27,905 bases of DNA, taken from positions 1 to 27,905 of the IMG/VR virus record IMGVR_UViG_3300046536_000107; one strand, given 5' to 3'. Positions 444 through 26,662 of the stretch are shown in pieces. The number at the start of each line of letters is the position of its first letter. The first letter of the stretch is position 1. The notes below the pieces were generated by a model. The model searched no databases and was not told the DNA's origin. It saw only the letters and a list, made by a program, of their open reading frames with translations. This stretch comes from a virus. The position numbers and the translations under genes were made by a program.

Positions 444-455
444 ACGCCCAACGTT
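444..455 (+). promoter_or_regulatory. Dispersed 12-bp box, copy 1 (ACGCCCAACGTT)
   Basis: This is an exact copy of the repeat family also found at 1264, 1429, 11354, 13632, 15892, 26027 and 26651. Here it sits 4 nt after a hairpin and 36 nt before the ATG at 492, in the direction of transcription. The function is inferred: protein-binding site or RNA signal. Confidence 0.6.
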
Positions 456-491
456 ATGCGCATCAGACCTAGACCAGACCGGAGTCAGACC

Positions 492-1145
492 ATGGACATT
501 CTCAAGGCCGTGAAGTTCAGCGCCTACATCATCGCCCTCATTGCGGGCGTGATGTCCTACGGGCATCAGGCGACGCTGTTGCTCCATGCACACGCCGGGG
601 TGTACTCGTACGCCGTGCCGCTGACGGTCGACGTGTTGGCGTTCATCGCGGCCCTGATGCGCAACTCGGACCATGTCGAGGCGACCTCGCGGAAGGCGGC
701 CGTCGCGACGCTGGTCCTCGCCGGCGCCATGAGCATCGCCGCGAACATCGCGGTCGGCGAGAATTTGATTCAACGGATCGTCGGGTTCTGGACGGTCGCG
801 GCCTACCTGCTCGCCGAGTGGTTCGTGAGTTGCCTCAAGGCGAAGCCTGCCGCCGAAGTCGTCGAGCCGGCCGTCGTCGAGGCGCCTGTCGTCGAGGCCG
901 TCGAGACGGCCGTCGTCGAGCCCGCGAAGCCCGCCATTGACCCCGAGGTGTTTGCCAAGCGGTCCGAGGCTGCCAAGCGTGGCGCCGCGACCCGCGCCGC
1001 GAAGCGCGAGCAGCAACTCAGGGAAGCCCGCCTCGCCGGCCGCCGCGAGCGTCGCGCCGCTCAGGCCGCCTCGGCAACGACCCTCGCAACCCTCGAAGAC
1101 GCCTATGCCGTCACCGCCGAGGAGCGTACGCATATCAACGCCTAA
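492..1145 (+). CDS. DUF2637-like four-TM membrane protein with charged tail
   Basis: The start is set at the ATG at 492, which has GGAG 7 nt upstream; an in-frame ATG at 456 lacks a good ribosome site. Four hydrophobic segments (about residues 6-32, 40-56, 70-90 and 95-115) resemble the DUF2637 family of Streptomyces plasmids and phages, some of which are annotated as spread or regulatory proteins. A Val/Glu/Pro/Ala linker with repeated VVE units follows (about 120-150). The tail is strongly basic and coiled, rich in Arg, Ala and Lys (about 160-205), and is likely cytoplasmic. The family's biochemical role is not established. A membrane sensor or a superinfection-related function is possible but unproven. 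Membrane topology is well supported; the family name is moderately supported. Confidence 0.7.
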   Translation: MDILKAVKFSAYIIALIAGVMSYGHQATLLLHAHAGVYSYAVPLTVDVLAFIAALMRNSDHVEATSRKAAVATLVLAGAMSIAANIAVGENLIQRIVGFWTVAAYLLAEWFVSCLKAKPAAEVVEPAVVEAPVVEAVETAVVEPAKPAIDPEVFAKRSEAAKRGAATRAAKREQQLREARLAGRRERRAAQAASATTLATLEDAYAVTAEERTHINA

Positions 1146-1167
1146 ACCGCACCACACGCCCCACTGG

Positions 1168-1193
1168 CCCCGGCTGTCACAGCCGGGGTTTCT
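1168..1193 (+). terminator. Intrinsic terminator after the DUF2637-like gene
   Basis: CCCCGGCTG (1168-1176) and CAGCCGGGG (1180-1188) form a perfect 9-bp stem with a 3-nt loop, followed by TTTCT. It lies 22 nt after the stop codon at 1145. Confidence 0.8.
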
Positions 1194-1207
1194 GCCGTTC
1201 CAGAAAC

Positions 1208-1302
1208 TTGACGAAAGCTTGACTATTCAACGTTGCAAAGGGCAGCATCAGCGCACGCCACCTACGCCCAACGTTCCGCGCATTACTTACGGGTAGGTTT
1301 CC
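1208..1302 (+). promoter_or_regulatory. Leader region of the 1303 gene with possible promoter
   Basis: Two -35-like hexamers in tandem, TTGACG (1208-1213) and TTGACT (1219-1224), lie between a terminator and the next gene. The best -10 for the second is CAGCAT at 1243-1248 (18-nt spacing), which is weak. A CAACGTT half-match at about 1228 and an exact dispersed box at 1264-1275 lie downstream of it, as an operator would. Confidence 0.35.
1264..1275 (+). promoter_or_regulatory. Dispersed 12-bp box, copy 2
   Basis: Exact ACGCCCAACGTT in the 5' untranslated region, 27 nt before the ATG at 1303 and downstream of the tandem TTGAC hexamers. Same orientation as transcription. Confidence 0.6.
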
Positions 1303-2049
1303 ATGAATGATCTCGCCGCGAAGCAGGACCAACACTCGGCCGCTTTGACCTACCTCGATACGGGCACACTCGCGCTCGCGGAAATCCTCGCGGCGCTCGA
1401 CGACGAGCCGCCCGAGGATGGGCCAGACGCGCCCAACGTTCCGCGTCGCCATCGGCGCCGCCGGGCTGTCTCCTGGGGGCTCTGGGGTGTCCGTACGGGC
1501 GCAATGGCCGCTGCGGTAGGTCTCGGCCTCTTCGCTCTCGCGCCGCACGCCTCGGAGCCCGCTCACGCCGCTCCGCCGGTCGCTGCATCGCCCTTCGACG
1601 ACGACACGTTCCGCGCCTCGGCCGCCGCCGCCGGCCTGACGTGCACCCCTCAGACCGTCCACCATGCCGTGTGCGCCGACGCCTCGGGCGACGTCGTGCC
1701 CATGGACGCTTACATAGGTGATACGGACATGCGCTACGTCGACACTGTCAAGACCCCCGTGGGCGTCGCGAGGAACGTCCTGGTCGTCTTTGCTTCCGAC
1801 GATGCCGAGGACGCTTTTCTAGCCTCGGACGCGCCCGCGCTTCAGAACGTGCGACAGGGCAAGCGTTGGGTGGCATGGAGCAACACCCCGGCCGCCGTGG
1901 ACGCCGCGACGCACACGCTCCCGCCCCGGCCGGCCGTGCCGAAGCCCTCGGCCGCGCCGCAGCCCTCGGCGCGCACGTCGAAGCCCGCGCCGTGGGCGTT
2001 GAAGTCGCCGGCCCCCGGGCACGCCAAGAAGTCGCCGCCGAAGCACTGA
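1303..2049 (+). CDS. Membrane-anchored protein with external domain; possible lysogenic-conversion gene
   Basis: The 248-aa product has a cytoplasmic N-terminus with a run of basic residues (RRHRRRR, about 48-54). One transmembrane segment follows (about 60-80), positively charged on the inner side, so the rest should lie outside the membrane. The outer part holds a small domain with two cysteines about 11 residues apart (LTC...HAVC) that could form a disulphide, and a Pro/Ala/Ser/Lys tail (about 205-248) typical of wall-spanning stalks. I do not recognise a family. It ends at a strong terminator immediately before the attP candidate, so in a prophage it would be the last gene at one edge. 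That position is common for morons such as superinfection exclusion genes. The function is inference only. A 12-bp dispersed box lies inside the gene at 1429-1440. Confidence 0.65.
   Translation: MNDLAAKQDQHSAALTYLDTGTLALAEILAALDDEPPEDGPDAPNVPRRHRRRRAVSWGLWGVRTGAMAAAVGLGLFALAPHASEPAHAAPPVAASPFDDDTFRASAAAAGLTCTPQTVHHAVCADASGDVVPMDAYIGDTDMRYVDTVKTPVGVARNVLVVFASDDAEDAFLASDAPALQNVRQGKRWVAWSNTPAAVDAATHTLPPRPAVPKPSAAPQPSARTSKPAPWALKSPAPGHAKKSPPKH
1429..1440 (+). promoter_or_regulatory. Dispersed 12-bp box, copy 3 (inside a gene)
   Basis: GCGCCCAACGTT, differing from the commonest form only at the first base. It is in coding sequence for the residues APNV of the 1303 gene. Confidence 0.5.
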
Positions 2050-2074
2050 CGGCCTAAGTCACCTCACGCCCCGC

Positions 2075-2106
2075 GCCCCGGTCCTCACCGACCGGGGCCT
2101 TTCTTT
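2075..2106 (+). terminator. Intrinsic terminator between the 1303 gene and attP
   Basis: GCCCCGGTC (2075-2083) and GACCGGGGC (2090-2098) form a perfect 9-bp stem with a 6-nt loop, followed by CTTTCTTT. It insulates the integrase promoter from upstream transcription. Confidence 0.85.
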
Positions 2107-2152
2107 GTACTGAACTCGAACCTTAGTGTCCACCAAGGTTTGAGTTGAGTAC
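2107..2152. other. attP: Candidate attP site for the serine integrase
   Basis: GTACTGAACTCGAACCTT (2107-2124) and AAGGTTTGAGTTGAGTAC (2135-2152) are inverted copies matching at 16 of 18 positions. Inside them GTG and CAC flank a central TC at 2129-2130, so the whole 46-bp site is symmetric at 19 of 22 pairs around a non-palindromic dinucleotide. Large serine integrases are known to use attP sites of about 50 bp with just this design, usually beside the int gene; here int starts 21 bp away. No T-run follows and a separate terminator lies just upstream, so a terminator is less likely. Confidence 0.65.
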
Positions 2153-2173
2153 ATAGAGTGCTATGGTGCTCGC
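2140..2173 (+). promoter_or_regulatory. Integrase promoter, probably giving a leaderless mRNA
   Basis: TTGAGT (2140-2145) and TATGGT (2162-2167) are 16 nt apart. The -10 ends 6 nt before the ATG at 2174, so transcription should begin at or next to the start codon. No Shine-Dalgarno is present. The -35 lies in the right arm of the attP candidate, so integrase bound at attP could affect this promoter. Confidence 0.45.
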
Positions 2174-3604
2174 ATGCCCTTTGACCAGCGTCAACCCCGC
2201 CGGATGCGCGCCTCTATCTATGTGCGCCTGTCCAACGCCGCGACCGAAACGAACCTGAGTAAGGACGGCATGGCTAAAGACCTGCACGCCCTTGCCCGGA
2301 CTCTCAACGCCGACGTGATCGCCGTTCACATCGACGACGGCATATCCGGTTCGGTCCGCGACCGGCATGAGTTCCTTGAGTGGCTGCGCGACGGCCGCGA
2401 GGGCAAGGCTGACATGATCCTTGCTTGGTCAGGCGACCGGCTCACCCGCGAGGGTATCAACGCCGCCGCCATGGTCCTTGACGTCGTCGAGGGCAAAGAC
2501 ACGACGACAGGCAAGGTTGTGCGCCCCGGCGTGCGCTTCGTGTCCTACGACGACCGACTCGACAGTGAGGAAGGCGACGCGTTCCGCTGGCGCTTCGTTA
2601 TCGCCGCCGAGGTCGCTCGCAGCGAGCGACAGCGCATCGTGGCGCGCATGGAAGCACGCGCCCGCCGCATGCTCGACCAGGGGCGCCACGTCGGCCGCGT
2701 CCCGAACGGCTACCGCTTCGACCCTGAGAACCCCGGATTCCTGATCGTGGTTCCCGAAGAGGCCGCCGTCATCAAGGAAGCGGCGCGGCTGATGCTCGCC
2801 GACGTCAAGCCGTCGCAGGTCGCCCGATCGCTGAACGCCGCCGGGGTGACAACCATCATGGGCGCTCCGTGGACGCGCTCAACGTTGGTTCGCAGCGTCA
2901 CGAACCTTGCCAACGCTGGGGAGCCGTTGCGCCCCGGCACGCCCGCACGTGAGGCCATCCTCTCGTATGCCGATGTCACTGAGCTGCGCCGGAAGTTCGC
3001 TCCGGAGAAGACCGGAAAGCGCGGTGGCGCCCGCTCGCCTCGCCAGTCGAAAGCGATGCTCGCCGGTCTTCTCCTGTGCCATGACTGCCAACTGCCGATG
3101 CGCTCGACGTCCGGCCGCTATGTGTGCATGACCGCAGCGGACGGCCGCACGTGCAGCGGCGCCGTTTCCGTGACTAAGGAGATTTCCGAGACCGCCGCCG
3201 AATCCGCCTACCTTCAGCGCTGGGGCCGTGTCGCCGAGACGGTCGCCGAGGTGACCATGCCCGGCGCCGCCGAGCGCGACCGCTTGGAGCGCGAGCACGC
3301 CGCTATCATGGCGCGGCTCGCCGAGAAGCCCACGGCCGCCGACTTCGAGGCGCTGCAAGCCGTTGCCGCTGCCCGCTCGGTATTCGACGAGACGCCGCCC
3401 GAGCGTGTCGTTCGCCGCCGAACCACGGGCCGCACGCTGGCCGACGCGTGGAAGGCAGCAACGACCGAGGACCGGCGCGACCTGTTGGCCAACGCGTATG
3501 AGTACGCCATGTGCTACCCGCGTGGCGTCTCGCCCCGACTCGTGTTCACCGAACGGCCCGAGGTGGCCGAGCTTTCCGTCGACGAGTTCGGCGACGTCAT
3601 CTGA
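2174..3604 (+). CDS. int: Large serine integrase
   Basis: This 476-aa site-specific recombinase should integrate the phage by joining attP to a host attB through a covalent serine-DNA link. The resolvase domain begins at once: IYVRLS places the nucleophile at Ser20 with Arg18 beside it, and the RLTR and SERQRI stretches are typical of the catalytic domain and helix E. A recombinase domain follows (about 170-290). A zinc ribbon has Cys302, Cys305, Cys318 and Cys327, then a coiled-coil region (about 350-400). Length is in the usual range for the family. The gene is a single unit with its own leaderless-type promoter and terminator. No excision partner is recognisable in the window. It differs clearly from the phiC31 integrase as I recall that sequence. 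Confidence 0.93.
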   Translation: MPFDQRQPRRMRASIYVRLSNAATETNLSKDGMAKDLHALARTLNADVIAVHIDDGISGSVRDRHEFLEWLRDGREGKADMILAWSGDRLTREGINAAAMVLDVVEGKDTTTGKVVRPGVRFVSYDDRLDSEEGDAFRWRFVIAAEVARSERQRIVARMEARARRMLDQGRHVGRVPNGYRFDPENPGFLIVVPEEAAVIKEAARLMLADVKPSQVARSLNAAGVTTIMGAPWTRSTLVRSVTNLANAGEPLRPGTPAREAILSYADVTELRRKFAPEKTGKRGGARSPRQSKAMLAGLLLCHDCQLPMRSTSGRYVCMTAADGRTCSGAVSVTKEISETAAESAYLQRWGRVAETVAEVTMPGAAERDRLEREHAAIMARLAEKPTAADFEALQAVAAARSVFDETPPERVVRRRTTGRTLADAWKAATTEDRRDLLANAYEYAMCYPRGVSPRLVFTERPEVAELSVDEFGDVI

Positions 3605-3615
3605 CGACGCCCTCG

Positions 3616-3645: not shown

Positions 3646-3660
3646 TGTTGCAAAGATCGC

Positions 3661-3682: not shown

Positions 3683-3718
3683 TCTAGTACACCCCCGACG
3701 ACCAGGGAGGAAACAGAA

Positions 3719-4574: not shown

Positions 4575-5222
4575 ATGCCCACGGCACATCACCTCATCGG
4601 CCTGACCGGACACGCCCGCGCTGGTAAGGACAGCGTCGCCGCGTACCTCGTCGAGCACTACGGGTTCGGGCGCGTGGCGTTCGCCGACGCGCTGCGCGAG
4701 GCCGCTCTCGCCCTCGACCCGATCATCGACTACGGCCACGGCCGGCCGTTGATGCGTTGGGAGCGGCGCACCGGCCTGCACGGTCGTCGCTACGTCCGCT
4801 TGTCCGAGTACGTCGAAGCGTTCGGATGGGAGGAAGCAAAAGAGGTCCCCGAGGTCCGCCGCACGCTCCAGCGCTACGGCGTCGCGATCCGTGAGATGGA
4901 CCCGGAATTCTGGATTCGCACCGCCCTCGCGCCCATGGCGTACATGTCGCGGCCCGTGGTCGTGACTGACGTGCGTTTCCCGAACGAGGTCGACGCCGTC
5001 CGCAGCCGAGGCGGTCTGTTCGTCCGAGTTCGCCGGCCTGGCGCGACCGGGAACGGGCACATAAGCGAGCACGCCGTCGACGACATCGCGGCCGACGTCG
5101 ACATCGACAACACGGGCACGCTGGCGGATCTCAGGGACGCTGTCGAGCGCCTGATCGTCGAGCCGTACAACCTGCCGCGCGTCGCCCGCTACAGCGTCCT
5201 CGGTGCTGTCAGGGGGGTCTGA
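4575..5222 (+). CDS. Deoxynucleoside monophosphate kinase
   Basis: The 215-aa product should phosphorylate dNMPs to dNDPs with ATP, supplying precursors for phage DNA synthesis. The P-loop is GHARAGKDS (Gly12 to Ser20), the form seen in T4 gene-1-like kinases. Further matches to that family are an early FADALREAA segment, a central region with YVRLSEYVEAFGW, and VVVTDVRFPNE (around residue 133), which precedes the lid and base-binding part. The ATG is preceded by GGAAGG at about 10 nt. The stop overlaps the next ATG (TGATG). It is the only clear nucleotide-metabolism gene in the window. Confidence 0.85.
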   Translation: MPTAHHLIGLTGHARAGKDSVAAYLVEHYGFGRVAFADALREAALALDPIIDYGHGRPLMRWERRTGLHGRRYVRLSEYVEAFGWEEAKEVPEVRRTLQRYGVAIREMDPEFWIRTALAPMAYMSRPVVVTDVRFPNEVDAVRSRGGLFVRVRRPGATGNGHISEHAVDDIAADVDIDNTGTLADLRDAVERLIVEPYNLPRVARYSVLGAVRGV

Positions 5223-5455
5223 TGGGCATTCGCCGACGCAAGCCCGCCGCAGTGATCCCACTGACGAAGGCTGACCGGTGCGACCGGTGCGGCGCAGAGG
5301 GTCACGTTCGTCTCGTAAAGGACGGCCTAGACCTGGTGTTCTGCGCGCACCACTACCGGACGCATGACATCGCGCTTTCGTTCGCCGGATTCCTGATCAA
5401 CGACGACACGCGGGACACGCTCACGACGCGACCCGCAGACGTGAGGGGCGCATGA
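5222..5455 (+). CDS. DUF7455-like zinc-binding protein
   Basis: A 77-aa protein with LTKADRCDRCGAEGHVR followed by LVFCAHHYRTHD. The pattern Cys20-x2-Cys23 ... Cys41-x-His43-His44 is that of the small DUF7455 family common in actinobacteria and their phages, where it likely forms a zinc knuckle. Biochemical role unknown. The start overlaps the dNMP kinase stop, and its own stop overlaps the following ATG, so translation is coupled on both sides. Confidence 0.75.
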   Translation: MGIRRRKPAAVIPLTKADRCDRCGAEGHVRLVKDGLDLVFCAHHYRTHDIALSFAGFLINDDTRDTLTTRPADVRGA

Positions 5456-5796
5456 CGTTCGGGTTCAGCAGTTCCAGCGCAAACGGCGACGTCGACAGGC
5501 TCGTCGACGCGATTTACGCCGACCTCGGCCTAAGGCGCGGTTCCGTCTCGCGTCGCCGTGTCGCCGCGTTCGTCACTGCGCGAAGCCTGCTCGACGAAGG
5601 CCACGGGCCGGCGCCGGCGCCTGAGGACACGCTCGCCGTGGCGTCATGGCTGTCGACTGGCCGCGTTGCACTGGACGCCGAGGACGACGACGACGACGAG
5701 GACGACGACGAATTCGAGGAGGAAGCGGCCGGCGCGGAAACCATGCTGCGCGACTGGTGGCCGCCCGTGCGTGCGCTGCGCCGCCGTCGTGCATGA
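5452..5796 (+). CDS. Hypothetical protein with acidic tract
   Basis: 114 aa, starting at an ATG that overlaps the previous stop (ATGA). The N-terminal two thirds are a compact soluble region (VDRLVDAIYADLGL... and DTLAVASWLSTG). An almost pure Asp/Glu tract follows (about residues 77-92), then a hydrophobic-basic end (MLRDWWPPVRALRRRRA). Acidic tracts of this kind occur in DNA-mimic proteins and in proteins that bind basic partners; nothing here shows which, if either, applies. It is the last gene of the coupled operon, 4 nt before the next 22-bp box. Confidence 0.65.
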   Translation: MTFGFSSSSANGDVDRLVDAIYADLGLRRGSVSRRRVAAFVTARSLLDEGHGPAPAPEDTLAVASWLSTGRVALDAEDDDDDEDDDEFEEEAAGAETMLRDWWPPVRALRRRRA

Positions 5797-6719: not shown

Positions 6720-7072
6720 CACTGCGCCACTCCGGGCGCCCGCACGCTCGCGCCGCCGCTCTGCTCGCCGCGCTGTCCGCCGTCGCCCTCGCCGCGACGA
6801 TCCACACGACACGGCCGGCCCCGTCGCCGGCCGTTACGCCGCCGGCCTCGGCCGTGCCCTCCTCCTCGACGCCGTTCGCCGTCGAGCCCTCGGCCGTGAC
6901 GCCGTTCTCGTCGCCGTCCACGCCGTTCACGGCGCCGACGACGACCGTGACGCCGCGCCCAACGGCGAGCGAACCGCCGGCCGCGACCCGCTACGTCCCG
7001 TCGCGCCCAACGTCGAGCGCGACTCGCCGCGTGACGAGCACGCCGAAGCCCACCGCCACGAAGACGAAGTAA
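6686..7072 (+). CDS. Small membrane-anchored Pro/Ser/Thr-rich protein
   Basis: The start is the ATG at 6686, with GAGGAGA upstream; a longer frame from 6542 would overlap the previous gene almost entirely. The 128-aa product has a basic N-terminus, one hydrophobic segment (about residues 22-40), and then an extended region almost wholly of Pro, Ser, Thr, Ala and Val ending in KPTATKTK. This is the layout of a signal anchor with a wall-spanning stalk. Family unknown. Two near-matches to the dispersed box (6955, 7003) lie in the stalk-coding part. Confidence 0.6.
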   Translation: MVRVRQRATGVTLRHSGRPHARAAALLAALSAVALAATIHTTRPAPSPAVTPPASAVPSSSTPFAVEPSAVTPFSSPSTPFTAPTTTVTPRPTASEPPAATRYVPSRPTSSATRRVTSTPKPTATKTK

Positions 7073-9883: not shown

Positions 9884-11395
9884 GTGGCCATCATCAGCAA
9901 CCCCGCCGCGCTGGCTGCTGACCTCATCAGTCGGCACGGCGAGACAGTGTCCCGCGAGGGTCATCACGGCATCGTCGCCCGGTATCTCGACGGCGATCAT
10001 GACTTGCCGTACATGCCGCGCGAGCACCGCGCCGAGTACCTGATCATGGCGAAGCGGAGCATTACGAATTTGCTCCCGCGCGTCTCCGACACGTTCGTCA
10101 AGCTCCTGTTTGTCGACGGGTATCGCGAGTCAGGCCAGAAAGACAACGTTCCGGCGTGGGACTACTGGCAGGCGAACAAGCTCGACGCCCGCCAGACGAT
10201 CGCCCACCGTGGCGCGATCGAGTACGGCGCGAGCTACGTCCTGGTGCTGCCCGGGAAGGCGAAGGGCGGCAAGAAGACCCCCGTCATCCGGCCGCTTGAC
10301 CCGCTGCGGTCAATGGCCTGGTACGAGGACGAGGATGACGAATGGCCGCAGTACGGGCTACGCCACCGTGGCAAGGACGCGGCCGGCGACATGATTTGGG
10401 AGATCATCGACGACCAGAACGTCTATACGGTCGTGGGATCTGGCTCCGAGTACCGCCTCACGCTGACCGAGAAGCACGGCCTCGGCGTGACGCCGATGGT
10501 CCGGTTCCGCGACCGGCTCGACGGGAAGCCCACGGGGATTATTCGCCCGCTGGTGATCGTTCAGGACCGCATCAACGACAGCGTTTTCGCCCTGATGATG
10601 GCTATGCACTTCGCGTCGTTCCGCCAGCGTTGGGCGACCGGTCTGGTCATTCCGACCGACGAGAACACGACGATCCCCGTCCCAAACCCGAGCTATGACC
10701 CGACCGGCTCGACGGACCCGACCGTCAACCCCGCGACGATCGACGTCCCGAATCCGAATTTCGGTCAGCCGATCGAGACGTTCCAAGCGGCCGTTGATCG
10801 CTTGTGGGTCACCGACCAGGCGACGGCGACGTTCGGCGAGTTCAATCAGACGCACGTCGAAGGGCACCTCTCCGCCCTCGACGCGTCGATCGAGCACCTT
10901 GCGACCCTCGGGCAACTCCCGTCCGGCACGCTCAAGGGGAACCTGATCAACGTGGCGGCCGAGGCGCTGGCCTCGCTGTACGACGTCACGAAAAGGCAGT
11001 CTGACGTGTACGCGTTGCTTTTCGGCGAGTCCTGGGAGCAGGTGCTCAACCTCGCCGCCGTCGCCGCCGGCGATGCGCCGGTCGACGATGCGCAAGTTCG
11101 GTGGCGCGACACCGAGGCCCGCTCGTTCGCGGCCGTTGTGGACGCCCTCGGGAAAATGGTTCAGATGATGGACGTTCCGCCGGAAGCCACGTGGGAAATG
11201 GTCCCCGGGGTCACCGACACGGACATCAAGCGGTGGCGCACCATGGCCAAGACGAACGACGGCCTCGCCGCCCTCACCGCCGCCCTGACCCGCCAGACCA
11301 CGCCGAACGCCCCGACCACGCCGGCCGAGGCGGTCCAACAGGCACAAGGTGCTACGCCCAACGTTGCGCCGCCGGCCCCCCCGCCGGCGAAGTGA
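9884..11395 (+). CDS. Portal protein (SPP1 gp6-like)
   Basis: 503 aa, GTG start with AGGAG 8 nt upstream. The portal forms the dodecameric ring at one head vertex through which DNA passes. Recognised by overall similarity to the SPP1 gp6-like family: an N-terminal region with HHGIVARYLDGDHDLPYM, LPRVSDTFVKLLFVDGY, the central TPMVRFRDRLDGKPTG-type strand, and the long helix region LDASIEHLATLGQLP. The Pro/Ala-rich C-terminus (about 470-503) contains a dispersed box encoding TPNVAPPAP. Its stop overlaps the next gene's GTG. Confidence 0.9.
   Translation: MAIISNPAALAADLISRHGETVSREGHHGIVARYLDGDHDLPYMPREHRAEYLIMAKRSITNLLPRVSDTFVKLLFVDGYRESGQKDNVPAWDYWQANKLDARQTIAHRGAIEYGASYVLVLPGKAKGGKKTPVIRPLDPLRSMAWYEDEDDEWPQYGLRHRGKDAAGDMIWEIIDDQNVYTVVGSGSEYRLTLTEKHGLGVTPMVRFRDRLDGKPTGIIRPLVIVQDRINDSVFALMMAMHFASFRQRWATGLVIPTDENTTIPVPNPSYDPTGSTDPTVNPATIDVPNPNFGQPIETFQAAVDRLWVTDQATATFGEFNQTHVEGHLSALDASIEHLATLGQLPSGTLKGNLINVAAEALASLYDVTKRQSDVYALLFGESWEQVLNLAAVAAGDAPVDDAQVRWRDTEARSFAAVVDALGKMVQMMDVPPEATWEMVPGVTDTDIKRWRTMAKTNDGLAALTAALTRQTTPNAPTTPAEAVQQAQGATPNVAPPAPPPAK
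11354..11365 (+). promoter_or_regulatory. Dispersed 12-bp box, copy 4 (3' end of portal gene)
   Basis: Exact ACGCCCAACGTT, 30 nt before the end of the portal gene and just ahead of the next start. The following GCGCCGCCG is also shared with the copy at 26027, giving 21 identical bases in two unrelated genes. Confidence 0.55.
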
Positions 11396-12069
11396 CCGCC
11401 GCGACGCTCGACGCCGCCGCATTTCAGCTCACGGACGCTCACCGAGTCGCGCAAGCGAACATCGCCCTCGACTCGGTGGGTCAGCTGACGGCCGCGTGGA
11501 AAACGCTTATGACCCCGTCGAACCTCGACAACTACGCCACATACATGCAAGCGATGACCGGGGTCATCAAGTCCGGCCGCGAAACCTCGGCGCAGGTCGC
11601 CGCCGCGTACTACGACACGATGCGCACCCTCTACGACGTCGAGGGTCTATACGACCCCGTCATCGTCGACGCCGCGCCCGACGTCCAAATCCAGACCTCG
11701 CTACTCGTCACCGGCCCCGTCCGTGTCAAGACGCTGCTAGCGAGCGGCGACTCGATGAACGCCGCCCTCATGAAAGCGCTGCTCGCCAGCGCCGGCGCGA
11801 CGACGCGGCTCGTCGCCGACGCCGGCCGAGGCACCGTCCGAGGGAACGTCCTCGCCGACGACCAGGCCGAGGCCTGGCGTCGCGTGACTGACGGGCACCC
11901 GTGCTCTTTCTGCGCGATGCTCGCCGGCCGAGGCGCCGTCTACAAGTCCGCAGAGAACGCGGGCGAGGGCGACCCGTATCACGACCACTGTCTGTGCACG
12001 GTCGAGCCTCAATTCGTCGGGCGGATCGACCGCCCCGGCCGCAAGAACGGCAGTCGCCACGGGCGCTGA
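11392..12069 (+). CDS. MuF-like minor capsid protein
   Basis: From the GTG at 11392, which overlaps the portal stop (GTGA), the product is 225 aa. Placement between portal and scaffold is that of the MuF/SPP1 gp7-like capsid proteins, which bind the portal and are packaged inside the head. The C-terminal part carries HPCSFCAMLAGRGAVYKS and then YHDHCLCTVEP. This CxxC ... HxxCxC arrangement is typical of this family in actinophages and probably binds a metal. The N-terminal half is helical. Longer in-frame starts inside the portal gene are not supported. Protease activity is sometimes attributed to this family, but no catalytic set can be identified here. Confidence 0.8.
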   Translation: MTAATLDAAAFQLTDAHRVAQANIALDSVGQLTAAWKTLMTPSNLDNYATYMQAMTGVIKSGRETSAQVAAAYYDTMRTLYDVEGLYDPVIVDAAPDVQIQTSLLVTGPVRVKTLLASGDSMNAALMKALLASAGATTRLVADAGRGTVRGNVLADDQAEAWRRVTDGHPCSFCAMLAGRGAVYKSAENAGEGDPYHDHCLCTVEPQFVGRIDRPGRKNGSRHGR

Positions 12070-13631: not shown

Positions 13632-13643
13632 ACGCCCAACGTT
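13632..13643 (+). promoter_or_regulatory. Dispersed 12-bp box, copy 5 (after the coat gene)
   Basis: Exact ACGCCCAACGTT 6 nt after the coat protein stop, and 11 nt before a hairpin. With the following GG the core is the palindrome CCAACGTTGG. Confidence 0.6.
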
Positions 13644-13654
13644 GGTCGTTGATA

Positions 13655-13683
13655 GGGGGTCGCTGTCGCTGACGGCGGCCCCC
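13655..13683 (+). terminator. Hairpin after the major capsid gene
   Basis: GGGGGTCGC (13655-13663) pairs with GCGGCCCCC (13675-13683) over 9 bp including one G-T pair, with an 11-nt loop. No T-run. It is likely a partial terminator or a 3' end stabiliser, because genes for essential head parts follow at once. Confidence 0.5.
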
Positions 13684-14623: not shown

Positions 14624-14892
14624 TGGCCGAGTCGAACGTGACGCTCGATCACAGGGGGCTCGCCGAAGTCCTCAAGTCGGCCGAGGTCCACGCCCTGATG
14701 AACGACATCGCGCACCAAGTCGCCGAGGCCGCAGCCGAGGCCGTCAACGGCGCGAGCCCGGTTCCGGTCCACGAGTACACGACCGACCGAGGCGCCGCGA
14801 GTGTGTCGATCCGCGCGAAATATCAGGTCACTGACGGCGTGCTGACCCGCGCCGCTACCGGCCTCGGATTGGAGGTGCGCGATCGTGCCTGA
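14623..14892 (+). CDS. HK97 gp10-like tail completion protein
   Basis: 89 aa, ATG overlapping the previous stop. The sequence LAEVLKSAEVHALMNDIAHQVAEAAAEAV, then PVPVHEYTTDRGAASVSI, is typical of the HK97 gp10 group of neck/tail proteins: a long N-terminal helix and a short beta end. It is shorter than many family members. Its end overlaps the next gene by 8 nt, and the GGAGGTG ribosome site of that gene lies inside it. Confidence 0.7.
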   Translation: MAESNVTLDHRGLAEVLKSAEVHALMNDIAHQVAEAAAEAVNGASPVPVHEYTTDRGAASVSIRAKYQVTDGVLTRAATGLGLEVRDRA

Positions 14893-15331
14893 CCTCTGGG
14901 CGTTCGGTGATCCGCTGCTCGGCACCCTCGCCGTTCTGCGCGCTGCGACGCCTCCCGGGGGTGTCTCGGTCACGTGGGGGACGATCCTCCCGGACACGGC
15001 CAACACCGGCGCCCCGAACCTGCCGTTCGGTCTGGTTGCCTCGGACGGCGAGACCTCGAAGACCTCGGCCGACTCGACCGCCGTGGTCCGCATTGCGATC
15101 TGGGCGACGTCCGAAGCCAACGCCCGCGCCCTCGCCGGTTGGGCGCGTGCTGTGCTGCTCGCCTCACACGGCGACGGCGCCAATGTCCGGCACTTCGGCC
15201 GTGGAGGCGGGCTCTTGTCGACGCGCGCGCAGCTCGCCGTCAAGACATCGCAGACCAGCCGCGTCGACACGAGCGGGTTTCAGGTCTGCTCATTCACCGT
15301 AGCGGCTCGCCTGCTACCCGTATTGATCTAG
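14885..15331 (+). CDS. Tail terminator protein
   Basis: 148 aa, GTG start with GGAGGTG about 7 nt upstream. It comes directly before the major tail protein gene, the usual place of the tail terminator that caps the tail tube and joins it to the head. The alternating beta/alpha character (VSVTWGTILPD, PFGLVASDGE, STAVVRIAIWATSEANARALAGWARAVLL, then FQVCSFTVAARLLPV) fits the minor tail protein U-like fold. No sequence motif is diagnostic. Confidence 0.7.
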   Translation: MPDLWAFGDPLLGTLAVLRAATPPGGVSVTWGTILPDTANTGAPNLPFGLVASDGETSKTSADSTAVVRIAIWATSEANARALAGWARAVLLASHGDGANVRHFGRGGGLLSTRAQLAVKTSQTSRVDTSGFQVCSFTVAARLLPVLI

Positions 15332-15891: not shown

Positions 15892-15909
15892 GCGCCCAAC
15901 GTTGGGCGC
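15892..15909. promoter_or_regulatory. Dispersed box, copy 6, as a perfect 18-bp palindrome
   Basis: GCGCCCAACGTTGGGCGC is self-complementary over its full length. It is the only fully symmetric member of the dispersed box family, suggesting the other copies are half-sites with a palindromic AACGTT core. It starts 7 nt after the major tail protein stop. Confidence 0.65.
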
Positions 15910-15913: not shown

Positions 15914-15954
15914 AGAGCCCGGAGTGCGGCCGTGGGAAGCGCACTCCGGGCTCT
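15914..15954 (+). terminator. 15-bp hairpin after the major tail gene
   Basis: AGAGCCCGGAGTGCG (15914-15928) and CGCACTCCGGGCTCT (15940-15954) form a perfect stem with an 11-nt loop, followed by a C/T-rich stretch instead of a T-run. Tail genes follow on the same strand, so it likely attenuates transcription or protects the 3' end of the abundant upstream message. Confidence 0.7.
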
Positions 15955-20125: not shown

Positions 20126-22813
20126 ATGTTCGAGTTCACCGTCGAGGTTCGTGACAAGACCCTCGCGCGCGTAGGTCAGATCCTCCCGGAAGACCTGAAC
20201 CTGACCGTGAACGAGACGTTCAACAACGTCGGTTCGTGGACGCTCGTCCTCGCCAACGGTCACCCGATGGTGCCCACGCTCCGAACGCCGGGCGCGGGCA
20301 TCATCGTGACACGCGTGGACACCGGCGCTGTCCTGTTCTCCGGGCCGGTCGTAAGCCCGTCCCTCGAAGTATCGACCGCCGCCCCGGACGGTACCGTCAC
20401 GATCTCCGGGGTGTCCGACTCGGTCATTCTCGCCGACCGCCTCGCCTACCCGTCGCCAACCATCGGCGACGCCACCGCGCAGACCTCTTCCAACGACACC
20501 CGCACCGGCATCGCCGAAGACCTGATGTTCGCCTACGTGGATCAGAACATCGGCCCCTCCGTGATCCCGCCCAACATCCTGTCTGGCGACGCCTCGACCT
20601 TCGAAACGAGCATTGGCGGGTGGTGGGACTCAGTCAATGCCGCCCTGTCGCACACCAGCGCGCAGGCGCACAGCGGTACAAACTCCCTTACGGCCGTCTC
20701 CTCAACCGCCGGCGACATGGACGCTGCGAGCTGCGCCGCCGCGAACATCACGACGTCAGGATGGGTCGCCGGGCCCGGCGACCACTGGGTCGCGTCCGCA
20801 TGGGTCCGGGCCGCCGTAACCCCCCGTTCGGTGTTGGCAGGTTTGCAGTTCTTCAGCGCGGCCGGTGTGTCGCTGGGCACGTTCTACGGAACAACCATCA
20901 CCGACAGCACGTCCGCGTGGACGCAGGTGTCTGTCACCACGACGGCGCCCGCAAGCACGGCCTATGTCCGCATGCACCTCGTGTGGCAAACGGCCGCCGC
21001 GAGCGAGACCCATTACGCCGACGATATCGTCGTTCAGCGTGGTTACGGCCGTCGCGACCCGCGCCTGTCGCTCGGTACGAATGGCCACCGTGGCGCCACC
21101 CTTACGAAGTCGCCGCGCTTTCAGGCGCTCGGCGCGCTGCTGAACGAGATAGCTACCATCGCCGACTACCCGAACGGGACTGGTCAGCCTCTCGGCTTCC
21201 GCGTCGTTCAGAACGGCGCGACGCTTCAGTTCCAGACCTACGCCACCAACGACATGTCGGCCGGGGTCCGGTTCGATGTAGAGAACGGAACCCTCGCGTC
21301 GAGCAAGGTCGCCACGGCCGCGCCGACCGTCACGCGGACGATTGTCGGCGGACAAGGCGGCGGCACTGACCGGCTGATAGAAGAGGTCACCAGCACAGAC
21401 AGCCTGACCGCTGAGACCTCGTGGGGTCGTCGCATTGAGCAGTTCATAGACCAGCGCCAGACCAACGACCCCGCGCAGCTAACGGCCGCCGGAAACTCCG
21501 CGCTGGCGCAAGGTGGGCTGTCGCAGTTCGCAATGCAGCTCACGCCCGCCGATGACACGGTGTGGGTATACGGCCTCGACTACGGCCTCGGCGACATCGT
21601 GACCGTGGTGGTTCGCGACGGCGGCGGCGACCAACTCGCCGCGACCGAACTCGCGACCACCGTGACGGGCTACATTCTTAAGGCCGACTCCACGGGCGTG
21701 CGCTTCGGCGCGCTGCTAGGCCAGCCCTACGGCGACCAACTCGCGCAGTTCTCCGCGCGCCTGTCGAACCTCGAAACGGCCGGCGCGACCAGTTCCGGAA
21801 CTGGCACCAGCGCAACCCTCGCCGGGCTGTCCGATGTTGTCCTAACCACCCCGTCAACAAACGACACGCTCAGCTTTGATGGCGCCACCGGTAAGTGGTT
21901 CAACTCGACCGATTTGAGTTTGGGCGCTCCGTCCAACACGGCCGCCGTGATCAACGTCGCCCGGAACACCCTGACCGACGACGCCATCGCAGTTCAGGGA
22001 TCGGGAGACGGGAACGGCCGGTTCTTCCTCGCCGTGTCCGGTCAGCACCGGTGGAGCGATGGAACCAACAGCTCCGACACGCGCCTCTATCGCTCGGCCG
22101 CCGCGACTCTGACCACTGACGGCGATTTCAACGTCGCCGGGAACCTGACCGGTGCTGGCGCTCCGATGCAGCGCCAGATATTCACCGCTAACGGCACCTG
22201 GACGAAGCCCGCCGGCGCGAAGTGGGTCCGCCTCGTCGCCCTCGGCGGCGGCGGGGGAGGCGGCGGCGCTGGCGCAGCCTCGGCCGGCAACTCCACCCAC
22301 GCCGGCGGCGGTCAGGCGGGAAGCTACTCCGAGTCGTATCTCGCCGCGTCCACCTTCTCAAGCACCGCGACCATTGTGATCGGCGCCGGCGGTACGGGCG
22401 CCACCAGCGCCGCGAACGGCGGCGCCGGCGGCACAACGACCGTGGGCGGGACGATCGTTACCGCCCCCGGCGGCAATGGCGGTCTTGCGTCCACCACGAA
22501 CGCGAGCGTCTACGGGATTCAAGGCGGTAGCGGCGCCACGGCCGGAACCGGTCAGCTCGCCACCGCCGGCGCGCCCGGCGGCTACGGCTTCGGCGGTCCG
22601 GCGTTCGGCACCGGTGGCGCCGGCGGTAGCTCGCACTACGGCGCGGGCGGCGTCGGCGGCGCAGCCTCGACCGCAAACCAGGTCGCGGCGGGAAGCGCGG
22701 CAACTGGCCGAGGCGCGGGCGGCGGCGGGGGAGCGGGCGCCGCGACGACTTCGACAGTCGCGAACGGCGGCGCAGGCGCCGGCGGCCTGGTCATCATCGA
22801 CACCTATTTCTAA
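20126..22813 (+). CDS. Tal-like tail protein with carbohydrate-binding and glycine-rich parts; receptor-binding candidate
   Basis: 895 aa from the ATG at 20126. Residues 1-140 and about 306-590 look like a ReqiPepy6 Gp37-like tail-associated hub (start MFEFTVEVRDKTLARVG; later LSQFAMQLTPADDTVWVYG, then GDIVTVVV). Between them, about 150-305, lies a jelly-roll-like insert (NILSGDASTFE..., HSGTNSLTAVSS, ending ETHYADDIVVQRG) of the CBM4/9 type. About 600-710 holds tail-fibre segments (LAGLSDVVLTTPSTNDTLSFDG). The end, about 715-895, starts QIFTANGTWTKPAGAKWVRL and is very Gly-rich, like glycine-rich tip domains of phage adhesins. It probably binds the host wall polymer. The ORF extends upstream in frame, but that part overlaps the Dit gene. 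Confidence 0.85.
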   Translation: MFEFTVEVRDKTLARVGQILPEDLNLTVNETFNNVGSWTLVLANGHPMVPTLRTPGAGIIVTRVDTGAVLFSGPVVSPSLEVSTAAPDGTVTISGVSDSVILADRLAYPSPTIGDATAQTSSNDTRTGIAEDLMFAYVDQNIGPSVIPPNILSGDASTFETSIGGWWDSVNAALSHTSAQAHSGTNSLTAVSSTAGDMDAASCAAANITTSGWVAGPGDHWVASAWVRAAVTPRSVLAGLQFFSAAGVSLGTFYGTTITDSTSAWTQVSVTTTAPASTAYVRMHLVWQTAAASETHYADDIVVQRGYGRRDPRLSLGTNGHRGATLTKSPRFQALGALLNEIATIADYPNGTGQPLGFRVVQNGATLQFQTYATNDMSAGVRFDVENGTLASSKVATAAPTVTRTIVGGQGGGTDRLIEEVTSTDSLTAETSWGRRIEQFIDQRQTNDPAQLTAAGNSALAQGGLSQFAMQLTPADDTVWVYGLDYGLGDIVTVVVRDGGGDQLAATELATTVTGYILKADSTGVRFGALLGQPYGDQLAQFSARLSNLETAGATSSGTGTSATLAGLSDVVLTTPSTNDTLSFDGATGKWFNSTDLSLGAPSNTAAVINVARNTLTDDAIAVQGSGDGNGRFFLAVSGQHRWSDGTNSSDTRLYRSAAATLTTDGDFNVAGNLTGAGAPMQRQIFTANGTWTKPAGAKWVRLVALGGGGGGGGAGAASAGNSTHAGGGQAGSYSESYLAASTFSSTATIVIGAGGTGATSAANGGAGGTTTVGGTIVTAPGGNGGLASTTNASVYGIQGGSGATAGTGQLATAGAPGGYGFGGPAFGTGGAGGSSHYGAGGVGGAASTANQVAAGSAATGRGAGGGGGAGAATTSTVANGGAGAGGLVIIDTYF

Positions 22814-23508: not shown

Positions 23509-23520
23509 GGACCGCAACTC

Positions 23521-24627
23521 ATGCCAAGCTATTACGGGTCGACGGCCGATGGCGGGCGCGTTTACATCACGGTCAGCCTGGTCAGTCAGTCGCAGGCGAA
23601 CAACAACTCGGCGATCTCGTGGGTGTTCGGATGGGATTTCATCAGCTCACCTTACGACCGCGAGCTAGATAACGGGTACGTCGTGATTGACGGCGTCGCC
23701 CGCTACAACGTGCCCGGCCGCGTCCGTGACTACCCGCTCGGCCGCAGCGGAGCCGGGTTCTATCAGGTTGCCTCCGGTTCCTTCACGGTCGGGCACGACG
23801 CGAACGGCTACCACACCGTTGCCGTTGACGGTCACCTTCAGGGATACCCGAGCGCTTACTCGGCACTGACGTCAATTGGCCAGTTCGTGCTACCGCGCAT
23901 CCCGAAGCCCCCGGGCGCCCCGGGCGTTCCAGGGCTTTCGCTTGCGGCGGGGTCAGGCCCGAACTCCCGAACCATCAACATCACTATTCCGTTCCCGTCC
24001 GATGACGGCGGTTCGGCGATCAACTCGTTCCGGATACAGGTCGCGACGGATTCCGGGTTCTCGAACATCGCGGCGGACTACACGACCGGCTACGGGTCGA
24101 CTTTCACCGGGAACTACGCGACCACGTACTACGTGCGCGCGTGGGCGAACAACAACATCGGGACCGGTCCGGTGAGCGGTACCGCGAACATCAGGACCGG
24201 CGCCGACGTTCCGACCTCGCCGACCATCACCGCTCCCATAGGGCCGATCGGCCCGACCAGTGTCACTGTCGCGTGGTCGCCGCCATACACGAACAACGGC
24301 TCTGCCGTGACCGGGTACACGCTCCAGTGCGCGACCGACTCGCAGTTCGCGAACGTCGTTAAGTCGTACTCCGGTCTCGCCGGCCCGTCGTACACGATTA
24401 CGGGCCTGAACCCCTCGACCACGTACTACCTCCGCGTGTCTGCTCAGAACGCCGTGGGGTCGGGTCCCTACTCGCCCGTGCCGCAGTTCCAGACACTTCC
24501 GTCCGTGCTGCTGCCGAACTCGGCCGGCACGGCGTGGGCCGACGCGGTCGTCTACATCGTGTCCGGCGGTCAGTGGGTGCCAGCGCAGATCAAGACCCGT
24601 TCAACAGATGGGACAGCGTGGGCGTAG
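23521..24627 (+). CDS. Minor tail protein with two fibronectin type III domains
   Basis: 368 aa, ATG with AAGGA upstream at about 9 nt. The N-terminal domain (about 1-127; RVYITVSLVSQSQANNNSAISW..., GSFTVGHDANGYHTVAVDG) resembles the DUF859-type siphovirus tail region. Two Fn3 domains follow (about 129-228 and 230-327), the second with the clear TYYLRVSAQNAVGSGPYSP strand. The first is more diverged. The end (WADAVVYIVSGGQWVPAQIKT) is a short Trp-rich tip common in actinophage tail proteins. Fn3 domains in tail proteins are generally taken to hold the virion loosely on cell-surface sugars. Confidence 0.82.
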   Translation: MPSYYGSTADGGRVYITVSLVSQSQANNNSAISWVFGWDFISSPYDRELDNGYVVIDGVARYNVPGRVRDYPLGRSGAGFYQVASGSFTVGHDANGYHTVAVDGHLQGYPSAYSALTSIGQFVLPRIPKPPGAPGVPGLSLAAGSGPNSRTINITIPFPSDDGGSAINSFRIQVATDSGFSNIAADYTTGYGSTFTGNYATTYYVRAWANNNIGTGPVSGTANIRTGADVPTSPTITAPIGPIGPTSVTVAWSPPYTNNGSAVTGYTLQCATDSQFANVVKSYSGLAGPSYTITGLNPSTTYYLRVSAQNAVGSGPYSPVPQFQTLPSVLLPNSAGTAWADAVVYIVSGGQWVPAQIKTRSTDGTAWA

Positions 24628-24630
24628 CTC

Positions 24631-24924
24631 ATGGACTCAACGATTACCGCCGCCATCATCGCGACCCTGCCAGGCGCCGCGACACTCGTCCTCGCCGCCC
24701 GCAACCGGCGCCACACCGCCGTAATCCGGGCCGAGGTCAAGAACTCCCACACGACCAATCTCCGCGAGGACGTCGACAGAGTGCTCGACAAGCTTGACGC
24801 CGTGATCGATGGTCAGGCGCGCCACGACTCTGAGATCTCCGGGCTCCGCGCTGACATGCGCGTCGAGCGTAAGGAACGCCTCGCCCTCGCCGAACGCCTT
24901 AAGGAGGCACCGCCCCATGAGTGA
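24631..24924 (+). CDS. DUF2746-like membrane protein; holin candidate
   Basis: 97 aa. One N-terminal transmembrane segment (about residues 5-23; ITAAIIATLPGAATLVLAA) is followed by the RRHTAVIRAEVKNSHTTNLREDVDR stretch (in parts) typical of the DUF2746 family found beside lysins in actinophages, then a charged coiled coil to the end. It starts 3 nt after the tail gene and overlaps the lysin start by 8 nt, so it belongs to the lysis cassette. It may be a holin, a holin partner or a spanin-like factor. Since a two-TM r1t-type holin is encoded at the end of the next frame, an accessory role is as likely as the main holin role. Confidence 0.72.
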   Translation: MDSTITAAIIATLPGAATLVLAARNRRHTAVIRAEVKNSHTTNLREDVDRVLDKLDAVIDGQARHDSEISGLRADMRVERKERLALAERLKEAPPHE

Positions 24925-26641
24925 TGCAGGACTCGACTATGCATGGGCACACCCCGACCTGAACACCGCATGGAACTCGGGCTACCGGTTTATGTGCCGC
25001 TACCTGTCTTGGCTCCCGAACGGGAAGGTCATCACAGTCGCGGAGTATCAGCAGCTCCTCGCGAAGGGCTTCGAGGTCGCCCTGAACTGGGAATATGGCG
25101 CCAAGGACCAGTTGGGCGCCGCCGCGTCCGGCAAGCTGCACGCGGCCGAGGCCGTCCGCCAGGCGCGCGCGCTCGGGTACCCGGCAGGGAAGACGATCTA
25201 TTTCTCGGCCGACTTCGACGCGACCGAGGCGCAGCAAGCCCCGATCAACGCCTACATGGCAGCCGCGAAGGCGATTCTTCACGCGGCCGGCTACCGCATC
25301 GGCATCTACGGGGGCTTCTACGTCGTCAAGCGCGCGTTCGACGCGGGCGTCACTGACGACGGATGGCAGACCTACGGGTGGTCCGGCGGTCAGTGGGACT
25401 CGCGCGCTGCGATCCGCCAGGACCACAACGAGATTCAGTGCGGCGGCGCGGACTGCGACCACAACACCCGCGTAGGCGCCACCTACCTCGCCGGCGGGCA
25501 CTCGGCCGCCCCGGCTCCGCCCCCCCCGGCTCCGCACCCGCCTGCGCCGACGCCGCCCCCGCCCTCGACCGCGCGGACCTACACGGTCCAGAGCGGCGAT
25601 TCGCTGTCGGGCATCGCGGCGAGGTTCGGGATCGGGGATTGGCACACGCTCTACAACGCGAACGTGCGTGTCATCGGCTCAAACCCGAACCTGATCCGCG
25701 CGGGTCAGGTGCTCACGATCCCGGGGGCCTCCGCGCCGGCCCCGCCGCCCCCGCCGGCTCCCGCTCCGCCCCCGCCGCCCCCGACGACCACGAAGAGTGT
25801 CCCGAAGACCTACACGGTCCAGAGCGGCGACAACTTGTCGGCCATCGCGGCGAAGTTCGGGATCAGGGATTGGCACACGCTCTACAACGCGAACGCGCAC
25901 GTCGTCGGTTCGAACCCGAACCTGATCCGCGCCGGCGAAGTGCTGACGATCCCTGGTCAGTTCGTGACCGTCACGGTCAAGGCCGCCGCTGCTCCAATCG
26001 TGCGCGCCGTCGCGCCGCCGGCCGTCACGCCCAACGTTGCGCCGCCGCCTCCCCCGCCGCCGCCGCCGCCGGCCCCGGTCGCGGTCGAGGCGCCGGCCCC
26101 CGCTCCGCCGCCGGCCCCGGTCGTAGTCGAGGCGCCGGCCCCCGCTCCGCCGCCGCCGGCTCCCGCCACGCCAGTCGAGAGCCCGGCTCCGCCGCCGGCT
26201 CCAGCCCCCGCAGCGCCCGCCGAGGCACCTGCCCCGGCCCCTGTGCCCGCGCCCGCCAGCGAGGCGCACAGCGCCCCCTCATGGACCGACGAGATTACGG
26301 CCGCCGTGGTCCGGGCCGAGGCGATCATTCACCACCTGCCCACCGTCGAGGTTCCCGTCGTTCCCGACGACCTCGCGCCCGCACCGGAAGGAAGCCCCCG
26401 CGCTATGTTCACCCGCGCCTATTGGCAGTACATCGCAGAGCGTTCGATCAAGACGTTCGTTCAGTCCCTCGTCGCCCTGCTGGGCATCGGGCAGACGAAC
26501 ATGATCTCCGTCAACTGGTCGAACATGGCGGCCGTCGCGGGTAGTGCGGCGCTCGTCTCCGTGCTGACCTCGATCAGCTCGCTGTCGGGCTCAGCGGTCG
26601 TCGAGCCGGTCGACACGCACCCCTCGGCCAACCTCAAGTAA
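24917..26641 (+). CDS. Endolysin: DUF1906 catalytic domain, two LysM, Pro/Ala linker, fused r1t-type holin
   Basis: 574 aa, ATG with AAGGAGG upstream. Residues 1-200 are a DUF1906 glycosidase-like domain (start GLDYAWAHPDLNTAWNSGYRF; TIYFSADFDAT and YRIGIYGGFYVVKRA mark the barrel strands). Two LysM wall-binding domains (about 221-270 and 298-348) each start YTVQSGD and end VLTIPG. A long Pro/Ala region follows (about 355-460). The last 78 residues (497-574, from MFTRAYWQYIAERSIKTFVQS) have the sequence and two hydrophobic segments of an r1t-type holin. Lysin and holin are normally separate genes, so this is a fusion or a locus with an internal start. A dispersed box lies at 26027 in the linker. 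Confidence 0.88.
   Translation: MSDAGLDYAWAHPDLNTAWNSGYRFMCRYLSWLPNGKVITVAEYQQLLAKGFEVALNWEYGAKDQLGAAASGKLHAAEAVRQARALGYPAGKTIYFSADFDATEAQQAPINAYMAAAKAILHAAGYRIGIYGGFYVVKRAFDAGVTDDGWQTYGWSGGQWDSRAAIRQDHNEIQCGGADCDHNTRVGATYLAGGHSAAPAPPPPAPHPPAPTPPPPSTARTYTVQSGDSLSGIAARFGIGDWHTLYNANVRVIGSNPNLIRAGQVLTIPGASAPAPPPPPAPAPPPPPPTTTKSVPKTYTVQSGDNLSAIAAKFGIRDWHTLYNANAHVVGSNPNLIRAGEVLTIPGQFVTVTVKAAAAPIVRAVAPPAVTPNVAPPPPPPPPPPAPVAVEAPAPAPPPAPVVVEAPAPAPPPPAPATPVESPAPPPAPAPAAPAEAPAPAPVPAPASEAHSAPSWTDEITAAVVRAEAIIHHLPTVEVPVVPDDLAPAPEGSPRAMFTRAYWQYIAERSIKTFVQSLVALLGIGQTNMISVNWSNMAAVAGSAALVSVLTSISSLSGSAVVEPVDTHPSANLK
25580..25957 (+). repeat. Tandem LysM duplication
   Basis: The two LysM coding segments repeat with a period of 231 bp (first copy from about 25580, second from about 25811). 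They share long exact stretches, for instance the bases for YTVQSGD and for DWHTLYNAN. Both copies are near-identical at DNA level, so the duplication is recent or is kept similar by recombination. Confidence 0.85.
26027..26038 (+). promoter_or_regulatory. Dispersed 12-bp box, copy 7 (in the lysin linker)
   Basis: Exact ACGCCCAACGTT in the Pro/Ala linker coding part, encoding TPNV. The nine following bases match those after the copy in the portal gene. Confidence 0.5.
26405..26641 (+). CDS. Possible separate r1t-type holin from an internal start
   Basis: An in-frame ATG at 26405 has GGAAGGAAG (26386-26394) 10 nt upstream, a convincing ribosome site inside the lysin frame. Translation from it gives 78 aa: an amphipathic start (MFTRAYWQYIAERSIKTF), a first membrane segment with SLVALLGIG, a polar turn with Asn and Trp, a second segment (AAVAGSAALVSVLTSISSL) and a short polar tail. 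This equals the usual length and layout of r1t-type holins, which make the membrane hole that releases the lysin. It is the same reading frame as the lysin, so both a fusion and a free holin may be made. Confidence 0.6.
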   Translation: MFTRAYWQYIAERSIKTFVQSLVALLGIGQTNMISVNWSNMAAVAGSAALVSVLTSISSLSGSAVVEPVDTHPSANLK

Positions 26642-26650
26642 GCTCAAGTC

Positions 26651-26662
26651 ACGCCCAACGTT
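26651..26662 (+). promoter_or_regulatory. Dispersed 12-bp box, copy 8 (after the lysin)
   Basis: Exact ACGCCCAACGTT 9 nt after the lysin stop, abutting the terminator hairpin. Confidence 0.6.

Follow-up and report, generated by a model that had tools for sequence, protein, structure and literature searches.

A family of short, polarised DNA boxes recurs throughout the genome of a temperate soil phage, and we consider it likely that they serve an immunity repressor of the phage as operators and stoperators. This repressor, in turn, is most likely the product of the gene starting at position 26747. The boxes were noticed in the 27.9-kb IMG/VR record IMGVR_UViG_3300046536_000107 (positions 1 to 27,905, hereafter the window), which encodes a serine integrase, dNMK, terminase, portal, capsid, tail and endolysin; the large serine integrase (2174-3604, + strand) indicates a temperate lifestyle. 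We read the whole as a silencing system resembling the stoperators of L5 and the conserved inverted repeats (CIRs) of phiC31, with a repressor of an unrecognised family. The evidence comprises the sites themselves, their polarity, the geometry of the promoters that contain them, their adjacency to stop codons, a constraint on coding sequence at the DNA level, gene order, and the homology of the 26747 product to a putative repressor that is expressed in a lysogen.

A polarised half-palindrome recurs across a phage group

The window holds eight exact copies of RCGCCCAACGTT on its + strand, compared with 0.00 in dinucleotide shuffles, and by our own gene calls five of them are intergenic and three (1429, 11354 and 26027) intragenic, as a sequence-only reading of the same stretch had it. 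When up to two mismatches are allowed, the 11-mer core is matched 35 times in the window, against 13.8 matches expected. That reading described the box as a plain asymmetric 12-mer; the repeat itself stands, but the form of the site has to be revised, because the box belongs to a half-palindrome and represents the conserved half plus the centre of an imperfect 18-bp palindrome, rCGCCYAACGTTrGGCGY. At 15892-15909 this palindrome is perfect (GCGCCCAACGTTGGGCGC), which is why the 12-mer finds a ninth match there, on the minus strand (15898-15909). A supposed one-mismatch copy at 27802 (ACGCCCAAAGTT) had been included in the family. It encodes the conserved exonuclease N-terminus TTPKVRT, and since its DNA is not kept in relatives, we leave it uncounted. 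A degenerate copy that had been overlooked, GCGCCCTACGATAAGCGC, directly precedes the ATG of gene 26747 (26729-26746) and is probably important. A further word within a small gene, GCGCCCAACGTCGAGCGC (7003-7020), agrees with the full palindrome at 16 of 18 positions and is possibly an extra site.

Box-rich contigs were gathered by a pattern scan of IMG/VR, and all group-wide counts given here refer to 15 contigs. When the 18-bp palindrome was searched for in the whole of IMG/VR, 15 stretches matched, and essentially all of them stem from this phage group, many with multiple copies. Two contigs, G001 (41.6 kb) and G004 (42.2 kb), encode capsid proteins 94-95% identical to that of the window and seem to be near-complete genomes of this phage group; the window is therefore short of roughly a third of the genome, including most early and replication genes and the gene for a sigma factor. 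Among named phages, those closest to the window belong to the Azeevirinae (Arthrobacter cluster AZ). No capsid relatives came up in a genome scan, and scanning bacterial genomes with a 19-mer produced four scattered single matches, which we judge to be chance.

Does the site have a direction? Across the 15 contigs there are 79 RCGCCYAACGTT sites, always in the sense of transcription; 48 have the sense half only, 31 have the mirror half in addition, and none has the mirror half alone. Collapsing orthologues by flank similarity leaves 24 sense-only sites (p = 6e-8). This excess of sense halves, without any mirror-only site, implies that the full dyad is imperfect and polarised. Positions are kept while their flanks diverge: the box behind the capsid gene is exact or differs by one or two changes in 14 contigs, and the box in the portal gene is kept in G001, G003, G004, G005, G011, G012, G013, G015 and G017.

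Boxes occur in promoters, behind genes and within genes

In the relatives, early promoters have the form ACTTGCGCCCAACGTTGGGCGY-n4-TAnnnT, in which the box includes the -35-like TTGCGC, and an 18-bp spacer leads to the -10 element. TAnnnT is present at this fixed distance in 17 of 20 sites preceded by TT, against 2 of the 59 others (p = 2e-12); 57 of the 79 sites have neither the preceding TT nor the -10 element. The two leftmost boxes of the window, both on the + strand and both built on ACGCCCAACGTT, lie upstream of genes. The first (ACGCCCAACGTT-ATGCGC, 444-461) is 31 bp 5' of a DUF2637-like gene (492-1145) and is matched by sites in the corresponding position of G001 and G011; the second, also intergenic (ACGCCCAACGTT-CCGCGC, 1264-1281), is 22 bp 5' of gene 1303-2049, a position at which no site was seen in G001 and G004.

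Intergenic sites mostly lie 30-100 nt before the next start codon, and many follow a stop codon immediately: 26 sites are at most 20 nt past a stop codon, typically 7 nt, with 3-13 nt as the characteristic range. Three such boxes lie on the + strand of the window, each with a hairpin directly 3' of it. The box 7 nt past the stop codon of the major capsid gene (13632-13649) is followed by a 13-bp hairpin (13655-13683) that also occurs in relatives, the perfect palindrome 7 nt past the stop codon of a tail-protein gene (15892-15909) by a strong hairpin (15914-15954), and the box 10 nt past the stop codon of the lysis gene (26651-26668), which is kept in G001, G002 and G004, by a very stable hairpin with a T-rich stretch (26663-26704, z = -5.9), an intrinsic terminator between the lysis gene and gene 26747. 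The first two hairpins have no clear T run and are perhaps partial terminators or mRNA 3' ends.

The remaining class comprises 27 sites within genes. A single frame is shared by 25 of them, giving the peptide [TA]-P-N-V, frequently within linkers or proline-rich stretches of the portal, the scaffold, the endolysin and the sigma factor. Those in the window, again on the + strand, read A-P-N-V-P-R in frame in gene 1303-2049 (1429-1446), T-P-N-V-A-P close to the 3' end of the portal gene (11354-11371) and T-P-N-V-A-P-P in the proline-rich linker of the endolysin (26027-26044). Strikingly uniform codons encode this peptide: PNV is written CCC AAC GTT in 27 of 31 cases, whereas GTT accounts for 664 of 6995 Val codons (9.5%). 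The binomial probability is 5e-24, a value that is uncorrected for orthologues and concerns a peptide picked after the boxes were seen. Near-fixation of CCC AAC GTT despite the rarity of GTT argues for a constraint on the DNA rather than on the peptide, so that codon usage fails as an artefactual source of the boxes. Together with recurrence across the group, polarity and kept positions, these codon data support the earlier proposal that the boxes are sites for prophage silencing or transcript control.

The sigma factor gene belongs to the sigma-70 family (Sigma70_r4, 4.5e-12) and lies at 4606-5541 (-) in G001, 24517-25515 (-) in G004 and 24407-25345 (+) in G002. It has two or three boxes within it and one about 65-90 bp upstream. 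Its sequence diverges fast between groups. By tblastn it has no relatives in the phage collection, but comparison of hidden Markov models (HMMs) ties it to the sigma genes of phages Elezi and Yang.

A candidate repressor gene with a box variant in its promoter

Gene 26747-27385 (+ strand) encodes a candidate immunity repressor of 212 aa, conserved in G001, G002 and G004, with homologues in Elezi (gp27), Yang (gp25), Powerpuff (gp25) and Samy (SAMYPH_32). The Elezi homologue matches 101 phage records, and among the matches listed nearly all are annotated 'hypothetical protein'. In four members of the group the lysis gene lies ahead of it, followed by a box and a strong terminator. The gene order runs from lysis/dNMK through the 26747 gene to a Cas4-type exonuclease.

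The region is present in four group members, and in each of them the gene has a predicted leaderless promoter, TTGnnn-N18-TACGAT-N6-ATG, whose -10 element sits within a variant of the box, GCGCCCTACGATRAGCGC, or ACGTCCTACGATGGGCGC in G002. In the window its -35 element would be TTGCGA at 26711-26716 (+), and the -10 element, TACGAT (26735-26740), lies inside the degenerate copy at 26729-26746 (+), which we predict to be an operator variant for autoregulation. Most 26747 homologues share this promoter plan, including the box-like word. When these promoters (rep promoters) were scored with a box profile trained without them, five Arthrobacter phages had a match of the Azeevirinae type at -36 or -35 within the top 2% of windows, and the match was weaker in Mabodamaca, in Zeta1847 and in Microbacterium and Curtobacterium phages.

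The 26747 product had been put forward earlier as a candidate regulator; the promoter of its gene, the order of the neighbouring genes and the homologue in Samy strengthen that case. SAMYPH_32, which is homologous to it (profile E 2.7e-22), has been described as a putative immunity repressor that is highly expressed in all conditions (PMC11302927). We regard the 26747 product as the protein most likely to bind the boxes.

Homologue-bearing phages have their own oriented boxes

Azeevirinae of cluster AZ (Elezi, Yang, Powerpuff, MaGuCo, VroomVroom) resemble the group in having a 26747-type gene, annotated 'hypothetical protein', a leaderless promoter and a sense-biased box. They differ from it in the sequence of the box and in a second motif, GTTTACAC, beside the -10 element. 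In Elezi, Yang and Powerpuff the box is TNGCGTAAGGCGCC, and its settings are the spacer before TAGACT, positions overlapping stop codons, and the rep promoter. At a profile score of at least 15, sense and antisense matches number 9 and 1 in Elezi, 7 and 0 in Yang and 6 and 2 in Powerpuff, while permuted profiles all stay below 0.5; Elezi and Yang supplied the training set of the profile, which leaves Powerpuff as the independent case. Phages of cluster AZ, Powerpuff among them, form stable lysogens that are immune, and no repressor had been identified in AZ or EH phages (PMC8758107), as a 2024 report again states (PMC11600132).

The second motif, GTTTACAC, was seen in Elezi (L129), Yang (L130) and Zeta1847 (L144, in the form TGTTTACACGCGTGTA), with 17 sense and 6 antisense copies in Elezi. 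It adjoins or covers the -10 element of early promoters, is absent from rep promoters, and is perhaps the site of a second regulator. Zeta1847 also has a palindrome, CGAGCTCG, 81 times, where about 17 are expected. The more distant phage Samy (L142) resembles the group in its 26747 homologue and in an all-sense genomic repeat around AAAACGACTCACG, and differs in the box itself; AACGACTCAC occurs there in seven copies, all sense. In Kalimba (L143), a related word, ACGACTCACG, lies in the rep promoter and twice near the start of a sigma-like gene. The ACTCACG of these words is also contained in the phiC31 CIR.

Among other genes of these phages, an Elezi gene of 'unknown function' (L129:25366-26079) matches PF18897, the phiC31 gp3-like recombination directionality factor (2.5e-16), and has a homologue in G001 (11236-11985). 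Within the group, the 148-aa product of window positions 14885-15331, like a similar one in G003, has as its counterpart in G001, G004, G005 and G006 a protein some 304 aa long. A divergent pair found in G004 only (21709-22748, +), apparently an XRE-type regulator and a small partner gene, looks like a host-derived moron.

A model for layered silencing and its alternatives

How might one repressor act through so many sites? We envision that the repressor, most likely the 26747 product, binds rCGCCYAACGTTrGGCGY and that its action depends on where the site lies. In the early arm the site fills the 18 bp that separate TTGCGC from TAnnnT, in what would be host promoters of the sigma-70 type, and would thus block initiation, as the promoter geometry suggests. 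Sites past stop codons or within genes, being oriented with transcription, would block elongation, as the precedent of cluster A and R4 suggests, so that silencing would reach late and replication genes in layers, the phage sigma gene among them. Finally, the degenerate site covers the -10 element of the repressor's own leaderless promoter and may therefore set the level of repressor by negative autoregulation. With all boxes as its sites, a single repressor could keep the dormant phage silent.

Several observations weigh against this scenario. The window has no early site of the promoter class, which we attribute to the record being a fragment. By profile score, the variant in the rep promoter ranks only within the top 1-3% of windows, and a genome-wide ranking of rep-promoter words is dominated by codon-rich words. 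Searches of Pfam, NCBIfam and PHROGs recognise no named domain in the 26747 family, DNA-binding or other, and its PDB profile searches give only coiled-coil and other chance matches, with no credible relative. In AZ and EH phages the abundant GTTTACAC could be the main operator. There is no clear box in the 150 bp upstream of SAMYPH_32, and the support from expression comes from one distant homologue.

Some of these points bear on an alternative that we hold to be unlikely but consider the most serious, namely that the boxes are operators of another protein, such as a LAGLIDADG-like protein of 128 aa, a small early protein or a host regulator, and that gene 26747 is just one of its targets. 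The want of a recognised DNA-binding fold in the 26747 product speaks for such a binder, as does the conservation of the LAGLIDADG-like protein between the group and Azeevirinae (E 5e-43); dimeric proteins of the LAGLIDADG fold, moreover, bind pseudo-palindromes. Yet its motif keeps the acidic residues and its relatives are annotated as endonucleases, so that a phage would be harmed by carrying dozens of sites for it. None of the other genomes has an equivalent of the XRE-type gene pair of G004, and the Samy homologue of the 26747 product is expressed in the lysogen (PMC11302927).

We think it improbable that the boxes are instead promoter elements, middle or late, for the phage sigma factor (G001:4606-5541). 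Such a factor is indeed encoded, the boxes always run with transcription, and a subset shows -35/-10 geometry. The 57 sites with neither TT nor a -10 element and the 27 sites within genes nevertheless do not fit this idea; the site is a dyad with the -10 element outside it, and the -10 elements of the promoter class are of the ordinary TAnnnT kind. In phiC31, whose CIRs have the closest layout, the repeats are operators of the repressor. A shade less probable still is an action in RNA, with the boxes as gene-end hairpins or protein sites that tune termination, antitermination or decay. The strong hairpins directly behind the stop-codon boxes of the window favour this, as does the foldability of the perfect palindrome itself; on the other hand, more than half of the sites have no mirror half and cannot fold alike, boxes of the promoter class precede the start point and hence fall outside that transcript, and the rep-promoter variant overlaps a -10 element. 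An origin by chance, through codon usage or from a common peptide motif (TPNVA) can for practical purposes be dismissed: 25 of the 27 intragenic copies do share a frame, but the same DNA word is found between genes, shuffles contain none, and neither the 27 of 31 cases with GTT nor the promoter geometry would be accounted for.

If gene 26747 does encode the repressor, its family would constitute a class of actinophage immunity repressors that has so far gone unrecognised, the third besides the L5/R4 type and phiC31 c, neither of which it resembles in sequence, and would act via oriented, half-palindromic operators and stoperators specific to each lineage. It would then be the missing repressor of AZ and EH phages, of their Curtobacterium relatives and of the present group, in whose genomes operators would also have been written into coding sequence and linker peptides bent to TPNV, a broader proposition to which we incline with some reserve. 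For the AZ and EH phages of Arthrobacter and Microbacterium it names a candidate gene (26747; Powerpuff gp25, Elezi gp27) and one DNA site per lineage. An independent protein family would thereby join the oriented-stoperator strategy of L5/R4-type repressors, with putative operator copies embedded in structural and sigma-factor genes.

Comparison with known repressor systems

The sequence-only reading likened the boxes to the stoperators of L5 and Bxb1, a likeness that holds, and to the start-associated repeats of cluster K, one that does not: the boxes lie past stop codons, in genes or in -35/-10 spacers rather than at ribosome-binding sites, and all they share with cluster K is a family of short repeated sequences in an actinophage. 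The phiC31 CIRs, which it had not named, are also among the closest layouts.

In L5 and Bxb1 (cluster A) and in Streptomyces phage R4, many short sites are oriented with transcription, some at promoters and most not (PMC6550527, PMC9283540, PMC10276819); cluster A and R4 repressors are reported to block elongation, in L5 depending on orientation (PMC9283540, PMC6550527, PMC10276819). The group likewise has a multi-copy short site, oriented with transcription and found both at promoters (in the relatives) and elsewhere. As in L5, Bxb1 and R4, its repressor gene would lie near a Cas4-family or other exonuclease gene, and the R4 order of repressor gp29, gp30 and exonuclease is resembled. The word is different, many sites are full dyads, and copies adjacent to stop codons and within genes are prominent, unlike in L5 and R4. 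HMM and hhalign comparisons show no similarity between the 26747 family and R4 gp29, a protein described as 'similar to L5 gp71', whose family combines an HTH with a stoperator domain, with L5 gp71 itself not compared directly, and no cluster A repressor is among its PDB profile matches.

The CIRs of phiC31 number about 15, several of them 8-19 nt past stop codons, before or in terminator-like sequence, and one upstream of c; Ingham et al. 1994 reportedly described them as autoregulating operators of c. The group mirrors this layout with its 26 stop-codon sites and the variant at the 26747 promoter. The CIR (CCTACTCACGTGAGTAGG) is near-perfect and symmetric, a symmetry that the group does not share, since 48 of its 79 sites have one conserved half. 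HMM and hhalign comparisons of the 26747 family with phiC31 c (683 aa) were not significant. The group and phiC31 do share a gene order, dNMK - repressor - exonuclease - gp3 - primase - polymerase - sigma - integrase. In function the proposed system would work like the L5/R4 stoperators and the phiC31 CIRs, and although the 26747 family shows no similarity to R4 gp29 or phiC31 c, the group has the site layout of both the L5/R4 and the phiC31 systems.

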